Assembly: GCA_017522795.1 (NCBI GenBank)
Contig: JAFWXZ010000028.1
Location: forward strand, 1 to 39,632
Source of the DNA: Clostridia bacterium
GTDB lineage: Bacteria; Bacillota; Clostridia; Oscillospirales; CAG-272
DNA: 39,632 nt
Direction: 5' to 3'
Shown here: positions 7,341-34,987 of the stretch, piece by piece
Position numbering within the stretch: the stretch's first letter is position 1
Layout of the letters: every line of letters begins with the position of its first letter
Notes under the pieces: model-generated
What the model saw: the letters and a program-made list of their open reading frames with translations, nothing else
Told to the model about the DNA's origin: nothing
Databases searched by the model: none
Program-made: the position numbers and the translations under genes

Positions 7341-7436
7341 TATCCGCCAGATACCTATTAATTCTACTTTATTTAAGGTTATTATCGCAGCAAAATGCGC
7401 TTAATAATAAAAAATTTTAAACCGGAGGAAACCCCA

Positions 7437-9707
7437 ATGACAAAAAACAGACTCCTGGCACTACTCCTTGCGCTCGTAATGCTTATGAGCGTTGTGCTCA
7501 CCGGCTGCATAAAGCCCCCTCACGAACACAACTTCGTTGACGGCAAGTGCGATTGCGGTGAAAGTGATCCCAATTACAACCCCGATCACACCCATAACTA
7601 TGTTGATGGCAAGTGTGAGTGTGGCGCGACCGACCCCAGCTACAAGCCCGAAGAGGATCTCACCTTCAAGCTTCCCTATGCATCAGGCACCTCTCTTCGT
7701 ATGGCTACCGGCTACAACAGCAAGGCAACAGGCCTCTTCTTCCATCCCGATCAGTTCAAGAACGCCGATTCCATCACTCTCGCTGATGGTAAGACCTATC
7801 ATTCCGGCGATCTCAAGCCCACTTGGGTAGAGGTTCAGAACGTTCTTAAGGTTAATTTCGAGAACAAGTATCAGGGCAACTCTGCACAGAACGAGTTCAA
7901 GTACTGGGCAGAGAGACTTAACGAGGTAGATATGGTATCCGGTACCGCTACTCAGCTCGCAGAGGCTGGTGTAAAGGGTGACCTTATCAACCTTGCAGAC
8001 TATCTCGATGATATGCCCAACTTCAAGAAGTACCTTGACGAGAACCCCATCGTTCTCCTCTCTATCACCGGTGATACCGAAACCGGCGCGATCTACTTCT
8101 CTCCCTACTTCGACGGTGTTAACGACATCGAGCGTATGCCCCTTATGAGAACCGACTGGGTTGCTAAGCTCCTTGACGGCGAGGGCGACTTCACCGCTAC
8201 CGCTTCCAAGAATCTTGCAGCAGCAGCTTACACTCCCTACATGCCCACCAGTGGCAAGGTAGAGATCGACGTTGTTAAGCTTGACGGATCCGGAACCGAG
8301 AAGGTTACCAAGGATTATGACAAGGCAGGCAACATCGTTGCTAAGATGAACGCAAAGCTTGCAGCAGGCACCGTTTCCGGTGTTGAGGCTGTTAACATGC
8401 TTCGTGATTACATCGACGAAGCATACAACGGCTACTACGGCACCACTCGTTCCAACCTCTTCGTAGGTCAGAACGCAGCTTGGGACGCAGACGAGCTTGT
8501 AGCTCTTCTTCGTTGCGTAGTTGCTAACCCCCAGACTCTTAACGGCACCGAGAGCGTTGCAGGTCTCTTCTCCAGAGAAGACGGCAACAACCAGAGAAGA
8601 GTTGATATGTTCCGCTTTGCAGGAACTCTCTTCGGCGTACGTGGCCTTGAGTCCAGACAGGATTATCTCTATGTAGGTACCGATGGCAAGCTTCACGATG
8701 CTCGTCACGAGGTTGACACCTACGTAGCACTCGAGAGAATGAATGCTATGGTACAGGAAGGTCTTATTTCCAAGTCCTTCATCGATGACGATACCAGCGG
8801 TAAGACTCAGAACATGCTTAAGAACGACGCAGGCTTTATGCACTACGACTACAACCAGACTCAGACCGTTTACAACCAGACCGACCTTCAGAACGGCGAG
8901 AAGTACATGGCAGTTATGGTTCCCGTTGCTCACTGGTTCGACGGCACCGAGGGTGGCGTTTACATGAGATTTACCGAGTCCTGGAGATCTGTTAAGACCG
9001 ACGGTTGGGCAATCTCCAAGGCAGGTGTTAGCAATGACACCAATAAGCTTCACGCAGCTCTCGCTATCATCGACTACGCTTACTCCGAGAAGGGTCAGAT
9101 CCTTATGTCCTACGGTCCCGATGCATTCATTAAGACCAATGCAGACGGCTCTTACGCGACCTTTGACTTCAACGGCAAGCAGATGCCCATCATCGCTGAT
9201 GCTACATACGCTGAGCTTTGGGAAAAGGCTTCCGGTAACTACACCAACTACGCTCGTCAGTTCCTCGGCTCCACTCTTTCCTTTGTAAAGAGCCAGGCAT
9301 TCGAGTATCAGTGCACTCACGACGTAGGTAAGGAAGGCGCAGCCAAGATCTCCAACGCTATCAAGTACGGCACCATCAAGCATCCCGAGCTTGCTATCTC
9401 CGAGAACTCCTGGTACACCATCGTTCCTACCACTCTTCCCAACACTAAGGAAGAGAACGACGCTATCTCCGCTCTGACCGATCTTTCCTCCAACGGTAAG
9501 TTCTCTCAGTCCAAGGATGACGGCGAAAAGCATCCCGAGAACCTTCTCATCGACGTTATCGTTAAGGGTTACGTAGGTGACGGTCTCGATTCTCGCGACA
9601 ACCTTATCAATACTGTTAAGAACACCTACGGTACTACTCAGTATCTTGCTCTCAGACAGCTTGCTTGGGAGAGACTTGTTGAGTACTATCAGTCTCTTAA
9701 CAAATAA
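7437..9707 (+). CDS. Large solute-binding lipoprotein of the carbohydrate ABC transporter
   Basis: A 756-residue extracellular lipoprotein. The start at 7437 has a GGAGGA site and yields a signal peptide with lipobox LTGC, cysteine near residue 22. Directly after the anchor come two copies of a short unit, H-x-H-(N)-(F/Y)VDGKC-x-CG-x-x-DP, giving Cys-x-Cys pairs; these may act as a spacer or a metal site. The remainder resembles the large extracellular binding proteins of the LplA/YtcQ group, with KTDGWAIS and a YSEKGQILMSYG segment near residues 520-560. Codon use is strongly biased compared with neighbours, which suggests high expression. It follows the two permease genes. Oligogalacturonides or rhamnogalacturonan fragments are the likely ligand by context. 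Confidence 0.88.
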   Translation: MTKNRLLALLLALVMLMSVVLTGCIKPPHEHNFVDGKCDCGESDPNYNPDHTHNYVDGKCECGATDPSYKPEEDLTFKLPYASGTSLRMATGYNSKATGLFFHPDQFKNADSITLADGKTYHSGDLKPTWVEVQNVLKVNFENKYQGNSAQNEFKYWAERLNEVDMVSGTATQLAEAGVKGDLINLADYLDDMPNFKKYLDENPIVLLSITGDTETGAIYFSPYFDGVNDIERMPLMRTDWVAKLLDGEGDFTATASKNLAAAAYTPYMPTSGKVEIDVVKLDGSGTEKVTKDYDKAGNIVAKMNAKLAAGTVSGVEAVNMLRDYIDEAYNGYYGTTRSNLFVGQNAAWDADELVALLRCVVANPQTLNGTESVAGLFSREDGNNQRRVDMFRFAGTLFGVRGLESRQDYLYVGTDGKLHDARHEVDTYVALERMNAMVQEGLISKSFIDDDTSGKTQNMLKNDAGFMHYDYNQTQTVYNQTDLQNGEKYMAVMVPVAHWFDGTEGGVYMRFTESWRSVKTDGWAISKAGVSNDTNKLHAALAIIDYAYSEKGQILMSYGPDAFIKTNADGSYATFDFNGKQMPIIADATYAELWEKASGNYTNYARQFLGSTLSFVKSQAFEYQCTHDVGKEGAAKISNAIKYGTIKHPELAISENSWYTIVPTTLPNTKEENDAISALTDLSSNGKFSQSKDDGEKHPENLLIDVIVKGYVGDGLDSRDNLINTVKNTYGTTQYLALRQLAWERLVEYYQSLNK

Positions 9708-9754
9708 TTGATCTTTATTACTAATTAACATATAGTAATCAGAACAATCTCAAT

Positions 9755-31720: not shown

Positions 31721-33852
31721 ATGAACTACAAATACGATGCATGGTCGGGCTTTGAAGCCGGCACTTGGGTTAAGGAAGTCAACGTGCGCAGCTTTATCCG
31801 ACACAATTATACACCCTACGATGGCGATGAGAGCTTCCTTGAGGCTCCCACGAAGGACACTCTCTCGCTCTGGGATCAGGTAATGGAGCTTACAAGACAG
31901 GAAAGAGAAAAGGGCGGAGTTCTTGATATGGACACCAAGATAATCTCCACCATTACCTCTCACGGCCCCGGTTATCTTAACAAGGATATAGAGAAAATCG
32001 TCGGCTTCCAGACCGACAAGCCCTTCAAGCGCGCGCTTATGCCCTATGGCGGTATCCGTATGGCAGAAAAGGCTTGTGCTGACAACGGCTATACCATCGA
32101 CCCTCAGGTAAAGGAGTTCTTTACCATACACAGAAAGACACACAATTCCGGCGTTTTTGATGCCTACACCCCCGAGATGAAGGCATGCAGAAACAGCCAT
32201 ATCATTACAGGTCTGCCCGATGCCTACGGACGAGGCAGAATTATAGGTGACTACAGACGAGTTGCGCTCTACGGCGTTGATCGTCTCATCGCCGATAAGG
32301 AGGAGCAGAAGAGAACCACCCGTTCCGCTATGTACTCAGAGGTTATCAGAGCAAGAGAGGAGCTTTCCGAGCAAATCCGCGCTCTCGGCGATCTGAAAAA
32401 GATGGCTGCAAGCTACGGATGTGATATTTCCCTTCCCGCAAAGGATACCAAAGAGGCTATTCAATGGCTCTACTTCGGTTATCTCGCAGCGGTTAAGGAG
32501 CAAAACGGCGCGGCTATGTCGCTTGGCCGTACCTCCACCTTCCTTGACATCTACTCCGAGAGAGATATCAGAGAAGGAAGATATACCGAGAGCGAGATAC
32601 AGGAGTTTGTTGACCAGTTCATTATGAAGCTCCGCCTTATCAAGTTTGCTCGTACTCCCGAGTACAACGCGCTCTTCTCGGGCGATCCCCAGTGGGTGAC
32701 CGAGTCTATCGGCGGTATTGCAATCGACGGTCGTCATATGGTAACGAAGATGTCCTACCGTTATCTCCATACCCTCACAAATCTCGGTCCTGCTCCCGAG
32801 CCCAACCTCACGGTTCTCTGGTCCACAAGACTTCCTATGAACTTCAAGCGCTACTGTGCTAAAATGTCTATTGAGACCTCCTCTATCCAGTACGAAAACG
32901 ACGATATGATGCGCTTTACCCACGGTGACGACTACGCCATCGCCTGCTGCGTATCCTCTATGAGAGTTGGTAAGGAGATGCAGTTCTTCGGCGCGAGAGC
33001 TAATCTTGCAAAGTGCCTGCTCTATGCTATTAACGGCGGCGTTGACGAGATAAACGGAAAGCAGATTGGCCCCGAGTACAGACCTATCACCAGCGAATAT
33101 CTTGACTACGACGAGGTTATCGTTAAGTACGATGCAATGCTCAAGTGGCTTGCGGGCGTATACGTAAACACCCTTAACGTAATTCACTATATGCACGACA
33201 AGTATTGCTACGAGAAGATACAGATGGCCCTTCACGACAAGGACGTCACCCGTTGGTTTGCCACGGGTATTGCGGGACTGTCGGTTGTGGCAGACTCCCT
33301 CTCTGCAATCAAATACGCGCGCGTTAAGGTTATCCGCGACGAAAACGGACTTGCCACCGACTATGAGATCGAGGGCGACTTCCCAAGTACGGAAACGACG
33401 ATGATCGCGTTGACTCTATCGCATATGATATTGTTCACAGATTTATGGAGCATATCAGAAAGAACCACACCTACCGCGATTCTATTCCCACCACTTCTAT
33501 CCTTACAATTACCTCTAACGTCGTTTACGGTAAGGCAACTGGAGCAACTCCCGACGGACGTAAGAGAGGCGAGGCGTTCGCTCCCGGAGCTAACCCTATG
33601 CACAGAAGAGATACCCACGGTGCTATTGCATCTCTTTCATCTGTTGCGAAGCTTCCCTTCATCGACTCTCAGGACGGTATTTCCAATACCTTCTCCATCA
33701 TTCCCGGTGCGCTCGGCAAGGACGATCAGATCTTTGCAGGCGACATTGAGGTAAACCTTGATTGCTCAAACGGCGCCTGCGGCACTCCCACTCTCTTTGA
33801 AGGACTTGACACCGACGCATACGGCTACGAGTTTACCGAGAACAACGGCTAA
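31721..33852 (+). CDS. pflB: Pyruvate formate-lyase main body, lacking the glycyl-radical domain; reading frame interrupted
   Basis: With the frame restored the product is about 710 residues and covers the PFL barrel, including Cys409-Cys410 in IACCVS, which carry acyl transfer in the cleavage of pyruvate with CoA to formate and acetyl-CoA. An apparent one-base loss at 33383-33386 throws the frame after EGDFP; read as written, it ends in nonsense at 33754. One base back, the expected sequence resumes as KYGNDDDRV and runs through [18 protein letters not shown] to [13 protein letters not shown]. Where canonical PFL continues into the glycyl domain, this chain ends in a 40-residue tail with two Cys and many acidic residues. 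The glycyl domain is encoded next. The deletion may be a sequencing or assembly error. Confidence 0.85.
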
Positions 33853-33923
33853 AGTGACCTCGTCACAGAAAAGTGCCGACAAATGTGCTACACTTAAAGC
33901 AGTAAAACGAAAGGATAACTATA

Positions 33924-34166
33924 ATGGCAGCAACACAAAATCAGATAGATAATCTTGTTTCTCTCCTTGACGGCTACGTACAAAAGGGTGGACACCACCT
34001 TAACGTAAACGTTTTCAGCCGTGAGACTCTCCTTGACGCTCAGGCTCACCCCGAGAGATATCCCCAGCTCACCGTACGCGTAAGCGGTTATGCGGTAAAC
34101 TTCGTTAAGCTCACAAAGGAGCAGCAGGACGAGGTTATTTCCAGAACCTTCCACGATCAAATTTAA
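33924..34166 (+). CDS. Stand-alone glycyl-radical domain of pyruvate formate-lyase (GrcA-like)
   Basis: An 80-residue protein matching only the C-terminus of [12 protein letters not shown] at 10-18, [10 protein letters not shown] at 22-31, HPERYPQLT, and Gly55 in [10 protein letters not shown], the residue that carries the radical, followed by [13 protein letters not shown]. It has its own AAAGGA site eight bases before the ATG and begins 71 bases after the stop of the PFL body, so it is a designed small gene and not a chance fragment. It resembles E. coli GrcA (YfiD), which replaces a broken PFL C-terminus, but here it should be the only glycyl domain of the adjacent enzyme. PflA would activate it. 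Confidence 0.88.
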
Positions 34167-34234: not shown

Positions 34235-34987
34235 ATGGTCGGCTATATACATTCGAAAGAGAGCTTTGGCACGGTTGACGGGCCCGGAATACGCTACGTC
34301 CTATTTATGCAGGGCTGTCCTATGAGATGTCTGTACTGTCATAATCCCGATACATGGGAGATGAGTGGCGGCACCAAAGTGACGGTGGATGAGATAATCG
34401 AGGAATATTGGAACAACCGCCATTTTTACCGCGACGGCGGAATTACCGTCACGGGCGGAGAGCCGCTTTTGCAGATAGATTTCCTTATTGATCTTTTCCG
34501 CGCGGCAAAGGCAAAGGGTATTCATACCTGCATTGACACCTCCGGCATCACATATACAAACAAAGACACCGATTACCGCGAGAAGCTGGATGCGCTGATG
34601 ACCCTTACTGACCTTGTAATGCTTGATATAAAGCATATTGACTCCGCGAGGCATAAAGAACTGACCGCACATTCAAACGAGCGTATTCTCGCCTTTGCAA
34701 AATACCTTGAGAAAAAGAAGATTCCTGTATGGATCCGTCACGTGGTAGTAGAAGGATATACGGATGACAGTGAGCATCTTTTCAATCTCGGTAGGTTTAT
34801 CGGTAGCCTTAAAAATCTGCATGCATTAGACGTTCTTCCCTATCACACGATGGGCGAGAGCAAATACGAGCGGATGGGTATTCCGTACCCATTGAAAGGC
34901 ATTCATGCCACCTCAAAGGAAAAGGCGCAGGAAGCAAAGAACATAATTCTGAAAGGCATCTACTCAGTTAGAGGACAGAAAAAATAA
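34235..34987 (+). CDS. pflA: Pyruvate formate-lyase activating enzyme
   Basis: A 250-residue radical SAM enzyme that makes the glycyl radical on PFL. The [4Fe-4S] site is Cys28, Cys32 and Cys35 in GCPMRCLYCHNP, preceded by GTVDGPGIRYVLFMQ, a PflA hallmark. GGEPLLQ near residues 76-82 contacts SAM, and the LPYHTMGESKYE segment near 210-221 is also typical. It starts behind AGGAGG. Here it would have to act on Gly55 of the separate glycyl-domain protein. Confidence 0.95.
   Translation: MVGYIHSKESFGTVDGPGIRYVLFMQGCPMRCLYCHNPDTWEMSGGTKVTVDEIIEEYWNNRHFYRDGGITVTGGEPLLQIDFLIDLFRAAKAKGIHTCIDTSGITYTNKDTDYREKLDALMTLTDLVMLDIKHIDSARHKELTAHSNERILAFAKYLEKKKIPVWIRHVVVEGYTDDSEHLFNLGRFIGSLKNLHALDVLPYHTMGESKYERMGIPYPLKGIHATSKEKAQEAKNIILKGIYSVRGQKK

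Follow-up and report, generated by a model that had tools for sequence, protein, structure and literature searches.

A separately encoded glycyl-radical domain beside the pyruvate formate-lyase body points to a two-chain enzyme conserved across many species

INTRODUCTION

Pyruvate formate-lyase (PFL) splits pyruvate into acetyl-CoA and formate; it is a central enzyme of fermentation and a textbook case of oxygen sensitivity. In the canonical enzyme (E. coli PflB, model TIGR01255) the glycyl-radical domain lies on the same chain as the body. In the stretch of Clostridia DNA analysed here (39,632 nucleotides, hereafter the window), this domain is encoded by a gene of its own, and a cysteine-containing tail takes its place at the end of the body. 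The locus raises the question of whether the small chain is a subunit of a two-chain enzyme, a replacement part serving some complete PFL encoded at another locus, or the product of a broken gene.

Stand-alone glycyl domains serving a PFL body without its own are known from GrcA/YfiD (TIGR04365; PDB 6OWR) and the phage protein Y06I. According to PMC8683613, YfiD rescues intact PFL that has been cut by oxygen, and its N-terminal 60 residues are disordered, whereas the small chain described here adjoins the gene of its body. The reading that we favour, with a probability of roughly 85%, is that of a naturally split PFL whose activity is predicted from sequence: the large chain would be the barrel body, containing the catalytic Cys pair, ending around E. 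coli residue 680 and bearing a short Cys tail, and the small chain would be the glycyl-radical domain.

RESULTS

The small glycyl-radical gene lies between the PFL body and pflA

The features of the locus are collected in Table 1. The small gene starts with an ATG at 33924, 71 bases after the stop of the body, and comprises 80 codons with the stop ending at 34166. The codon of Gly55 (34086–34088) was located in the 10-residue glycyl loop. The product of the following gene, pflA, carries the CxxxCxxC motif of activases as CPMRCLYC. The preliminary description of this DNA had listed the 71-base gap, the AAAGGA site, the separate start, the 80 codons, Gly55 and the adjacent pflA, and all of these were found in place.

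The small chain exceeded the cut-off of the GrcA3 family and was below those of GrcA (TIGR04365, 92.9 versus 170 bits) and GrcA2 (104.1 versus 145 bits). It also aligned with residues 68–125 of YfiD, and no long N-terminus of the YfiD kind was present. The divergence of the small gene at codon positions 1, 2 and 3 was 0.113, 0.072 and 0.504, respectively, over 65 comparisons that are related and non-independent. This weighting towards the third position indicated that the open frame is not due to chance.

Table 1. Coordinates of the split PFL locus in the window
Feature	Position	Strand	Evidence
Large chain (PFL body), part in the first frame, before the one-base break	31721..33388	+	PF02901, 655.9 bits; TIGR01255 positions 1-550
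Rest of the PFL body in the second frame, with the C-terminal tail and its stop (33850-33852)	33367..33852	+	161-residue open frame
Split-type C-terminus: GALGKDD, then acidic two-Cys tail with PTLFEGLD	33706..33849	+	Last 48 body codons, alignment with relatives
Ribosome-binding-like site AAAGGA of the small gene	33910..33915	+	Read directly
Small chain, stand-alone glycyl-radical domain, GrcA3 family	33924..34166	+	NF038360, 166.9 bits versus cut-off 158
pflA, radical-SAM PFL activase	34235..34987	+	TIGR02493, 310.3 versus 231.75 bits

The body is broken by one base in the window and intact in its relatives

Inspection of the reading frames showed that the open reading frame 31721–33754 encodes the first ∼555 residues of the body, and that a second frame, open from 33367 and ending at 33852, encodes the rest. 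The catalytic Cys pair (in IACCVSSM) is inside the first frame, and the shifted-frame part from 33445 onwards aligned with columns 576–714 of eight intact relatives. The two frames are separated by a one-base break near 33,380, within about 33377–33388. The broken body scored 903.2 bits with TIGR01255, below the cut-off of 994.2 bits, and the body of the relative L039, which has no glycyl domain, scored 1105.1 bits. At the position of the break the frame was unbroken in all eight relatives, showing that intact copies exist, and 70 complete bodies, a set that overlaps with these eight, ran through it uninterrupted. A programmed frameshift was ruled out on these grounds. The break in the window stems either from a lesion of one base or from an error in the sequence and is unrelated to the split, which lies ∼460 bases further on. 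The preliminary description had overlooked this frameshift, while its account of a C-terminal tail on the body and a separate gene for the domain was borne out.

No glycyl domain was present on the body chain, its place being the separate gene at 33924. On E. coli PFL, the large chain of the relative L069 aligned with residues 11–681 and the small chain of the window with residues 683–756, which puts the gene break near residue 680, ahead of the entire glycyl domain. The Cys pair (C407/C408) was invariant in 52 of 52 aligned bodies.

The split is conserved in many species

The same body, tail and small gene were found at all eight relative loci, and in seven of them an activase motif was within 1.2 kb of the small gene. 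At least 7 of 48 same-genus relatives, and also the genome G059 of another family, contained a stand-alone glycyl chain. Of 394 genomes of the order, 21 were matched by a profile built on the tail, in 17 cases along nearly the full length of the tail. The preliminary description had proposed asking whether a GrcA-like gene always follows bodies with this tail; a scan of genome contigs placed a glycyl gene downstream in 80 of 80 tail-bearing loci, two of which are cut by a contig end. The small gene had a clear ATG at 79 of the 80 loci, with gaps of −17 to 329 bases (median 25), and at 29 loci it was in the frame of the body. A match resembling a ribosome-binding site was observed in 77 of 79 relatives with a loose, purine-rich pattern that had no shuffle control, and the activase motif was within 1.5 kb in 65 of the 70 loci with enough sequence.

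The titles of the records with split loci name Robinsoniella peoriensis, [Clostridium] asparagiforme, [Clostridium] citroniae, Claveliimonas bilis and Lachnospiraceae bacterium CE91-St56, and the majority of the remaining records are gut metagenome bins. In an even sample of the class, a stand-alone chain (open frame of at most 106 residues) occurred in at least 23 of 391 genomes, including that of the window. A GrcA3 search of the phylum sample gave only 2 of 398 genomes over the cut-off, namely that of the window plus a second genome of the class, together with two further matches in short open frames (252 aa in G1013 and 198 aa in G846). The distances among bodies correlated with those among small chains (Mantel r of 0.775 over 70 loci, with 0 of 1000 permutations as high).

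The one-base break might be taken to suggest that the split itself reflects a normal fused PFL that has decayed to a pseudogene or been misread in sequencing. This explanation is highly improbable, being contradicted by the split at all 80 loci, in many assemblies including complete chromosomes and with its clear start codon in all but one, as well as by the unbroken bodies of the relatives and the mostly third-position divergence of the small gene. Sequencing error and pseudogene formation were accordingly rejected as the cause of the split. As judged from these comparisons, the split PFL is natural and conserved across many species.

Two further observations were made on these loci. At the locus L124, from a record titled Erysipelotrichaceae, the PFL is split and its tail reads IPNLTEGIE, which may be due to transfer or misbinning. 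Hairpins between the body stop and the start of the small gene were seen in several loci (L039, L040 and L041; 33854–33866 in the window) and might set the ratio of the chains. In six loci that were folded, their z scores ranged from −0.15 (the window, not significant) to −2.87, and because of this spread no common element is claimed.

In most genomes the small chain appears to be a subunit rather than a spare part

The split form was collected from 50 genomes, comprising all those found among the same-genus relatives, the tail-profile sample of the order and the class sample; many of them are incomplete or fragmented. A match to TIGR01255 over the cut-off was obtained in 45 of the 50. Full-length PFL1 (TIGR01255) was not found in 48 of these genomes, nor in 28 of the 30 that are at least 90% complete; G693 and G792 were the only ones that contained it as well. 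The 48 include the genome of the window, in which the preliminary description had called for a search for full-length PFL; that genome is 78% complete and, taken alone, could hide an intact copy. Among eight further genomes, both forms were present in C. bilis, An118 and ER2 (the full-length copy of ER2 being in two contig-end pieces), and the other five, two of them complete chromosomes (L132 and L143), had the split form only.

These results bear on the alternative that the small protein is a spare of the GrcA/YfiD type, serving a complete PFL encoded at another locus. The NCBI name of its family, autonomous glycyl radical cofactor GrcA3, agrees with such a role, and in the five genomes with both the split form and full-length PFL1 the small chain could also act as a spare. 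Against it stand the 48 genomes in which no full-length PFL1 was seen, the neighbouring body that lacked a glycyl domain at all 80 tail loci, and the small chain itself, which fails the GrcA and GrcA2 cut-offs and is without the long N-terminus of YfiD. We consider this alternative improbable for the locus, and as the general case a spare part for a hidden intact PFL was ruled out by the 48 genomes.

The failure to find a full-length PFL1 in nearly all split genomes argues that the small chain is a subunit. In contrast to GrcA/YfiD, it is the only PFL1 glycyl domain found in most of them. From the gene content, the enzyme appears to be two-subunit by design, with the small chain a required subunit in most of these genomes. 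The two-subunit design put forward in the preliminary description thus gained support from the recurrence of the same tail and split in many species, from the scarcity of full-length PFL1 and from the co-divergence of the two chains. The small chain is a member of NCBIfam NF038360 (GrcA3), a curated model; the name speaks of an autonomous cofactor, yet the genomic partner has no glycyl domain of its own. Such a name can mislead metabolic annotation, because in most of these genomes the supposed spare seems to be a subunit that the enzyme requires. A PFL body without a glycyl domain should not be equated with a broken gene.

The C-terminal tail of the body is related to a third protein

The end of the body in an acidic, two-Cys tail with the stop at 33850–33852, as noted in the preliminary description, was read directly from the window and is conserved in relatives. 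In the tails of nine of nine aligned loci, C20, C25, P28, L30, E32, L34 and D35 (alignment numbering) were invariant. At least two Cys were present in the tail at 76 of the 80 loci from the contig scan, and the remaining four were three-gene loci. An AlphaFold model of the large chain of L069, computed with 52 alignment rows, had a pLDDT of 71.7, with residues 653–698 (the tail) below 50, so that docking by the tail has no structural support in this model. A profile search of the PDB yielded no relative of the tail (best E value of 0.1).

In the three-gene loci the body ends early, and a protein of ∼60–90 residues is encoded between the body and the glycyl gene. This third protein was found in 16 distinct cases. 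In 14 of these its gene lies between those of the body and the glycyl chain; in G643 it precedes the small gene, the body being off the contig, and in G594 it is downstream of the small gene. Examples are L143:4147-4356, L145:4100-4297, L147:4103-4360 and L148:4093-4293, besides 12 further loci. The third protein of L189, which is labelled type C in the trees, is located downstream of the small gene. Full-length third proteins occurred in 7 of 274 class genomes, all seven with split PFL, and were absent from the other 267; as five of the seven had supplied query sequences, only G643 and G594 are new finds.

The N-terminal half of the third protein is similar to that of GrcA3 (hhalign probability of 92%, E value of 5e-7) without the Gly loop, and its end matches the window-type body tail (94.6%, 6.5e-8). 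A Cys...Cys-x2-Pro core was present in 16 of 16 third proteins and a PTLxxG(L/M/I)D end in 11 of 16. No Pfam family was matched above threshold, and matches to GrcA3 were sub-threshold only; AlphaFold prediction was poor (pLDDT of 54.7). Because of the match at its end, the tail of the window looks like a piece of the third protein attached to the body, or the reverse. In six of seven type C split loci, neither a PTL-type tail nor a third gene was seen in the available sequence, three of these six ending in a short CC-containing tail, which implies that the tail/third-protein module is common and not universal among split PFLs.

Two proposals for the function of this module were weighed. In one, the Cys tail and the third protein would have no part in docking and would instead form a cap that senses metal or redox state and closes the empty barrel until the glycyl chain arrives. 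Most tails and third proteins carry just two or three Cys, probably too few for cluster-binding subunits of the benzylsuccinate synthase kind. Moreover, no homology of either to Fe-S accessory subunits was seen in Pfam, NCBIfam or the PDB, and some split PFLs show no such Cys module. The cap proposal draws on the recurrent Cys of the tails, on the glycyl-domain-like first half of the third protein that has no Gly loop and on its invariant Cys...Cys-x2-Pro core. It also has a parallel in benzylsuccinate synthase, whose accessory subunits, according to PMC12590467, bind [4Fe-4S] clusters and regulate the radical step, one of them promoting the thiyl radical step. Unlike in split PFL, the glycyl domain of benzylsuccinate synthase is on the large subunit (aligned in chain 4pkc_A). 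On balance, a cap in place of docking parts seems rather unlikely.

The other proposal, equally tentative, is a PFL with an exchangeable radical that consists of three modules: the body, the radical chain and a docking/cap module. The last would be half a glycyl domain in which the docking helix and strand were retained, the Gly loop disappeared and a Cys-Cys-Pro end, mostly of the form PTLxxGLD, was acquired. Some lineages would have it as a separate protein, and in others, such as that of the window, only its end would remain, as the tail of the body. Such a cap might close the barrel and recruit fresh glycyl chains, so that oxygen would cost 80 residues and not the whole enzyme.

One fission and at least one return to the fused form fit the tree best

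A tree of body pieces was made from 99 rows, 41 fused and 58 split. It used 38 of the 85 type A rows; five long-branch and three near-identical fused rows were left out, and two type labels were set by hand, L136 becoming A (previously C) and L065 becoming C (previously A). All split rows together with seven fused rows formed one clade (support 100/95), with two state changes overall. The nested fused rows were L016, L020, L021, L006 and L015, all five from the window's genus, and L200 and L201, their grouping having a support of 63/60, and a constraint separating the 58 split rows from these seven was rejected (AU p of 0.010). Those nested fused PFLs whose ends were inspected had no Cys tail. 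On this tree, one fission and at least one return to the fused form fit best, and gene conversion or transfer could mimic such a return. The preliminary description had held that single-chain close relatives would speak against the split. They do exist in the same genus, but since they are nested inside the split clade, they do not refute it.

Proposed mechanism and its precedent in E. coli

In the two-chain enzyme that we favour, the small chain would dock on the body, possibly by means of the tail. PflA would then install the radical on Gly55 of the body-bound small chain, that is, activation would take place in trans. The Gly loop is expected to sit in the barrel and to pass the radical to the Cys pair, whereupon pyruvate and CoA would be converted to formate and acetyl-CoA. 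Oxygen would cut the 80-residue chain only, and the body of ∼700 residues could take a fresh small chain.

Engineered and mutant E. coli systems provide a precedent. According to PMC8683613, E. coli PFL truncated to residues 1–695 and combined with truncated YfiD was competent once activated, with a kcat of 204 ± 32 per s. The same paper identifies residues 696–733 as a recognition element, the removal of which made YfiD binding undetectable and lowered activation 32-fold. In PMC12338860, E. coli with only PflB G734A made formate with GrcA and none without it. By analogy, the split enzyme looks like the E. coli arrangement of body and YfiD made permanent, with the tail or the third protein at the place of the recognition element. 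The tail, or the separate third protein in sister lineages, most likely stands in for element 696–733 of the E. coli body in recruiting a loose glycyl chain.

If the small chain is such a subunit, a native two-chain PFL, present in no fewer than one in seventeen of the sampled species of the class (23 of 391), would make swapping of the radical domain testable in a native enzyme and not in a repair reaction. A separate gene for the radical-bearing part could let cells replace just the piece damaged by oxygen.

Related structures and other glycyl radical enzymes

The closest solved sequences to the large chain were 38LA and 38LB, both named 'Formate acetyltransferase' (1123.9 and 1162.5 bits, respectively, for L069), and no glycyl domain was matched in either. 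In a quick tree, 38LB fell inside and 38LA beside the split clade, neither placement being starred, and the 18 best class-sample matches of a 38LB piece were without exception bodies encoded in split genomes. For 38LA, an engineered truncation is conceivable. The resemblance of both entries to split-type bodies suggests that such bodies have probably already been worked on by someone. Neither was among the fold-search matches of the predicted large chain (library dated to 2026-04-08), and no separate GrcA3-like chain beyond YfiD was found in the PDB. A description of a two-chain PFL was not found in open-licence PubMed Central papers. The word 'split' in passages of PMC11528403 and PMC12150765 refers to EPR lines and to the splitting of pyruvate, not to split PFL. 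What is already known is the GrcA3 family model, the trans-acting YfiD/GrcA precedent and the two split-like PDB bodies.

Elsewhere in the window, two long open frames of 770 and 682 codons (7395–9707 and 7683–9731) overlap on opposite strands; for neither was a Pfam match obtained at 1e-5. Breaks were also observed in other glycyl radical enzymes (L045/L046): in G010 the frame is broken before a C-terminal frame of 219 residues, and in G040 the gene is cut short by the end of the contig. These breaks were attributed to lesion or assembly rather than to a split of the PFL type.
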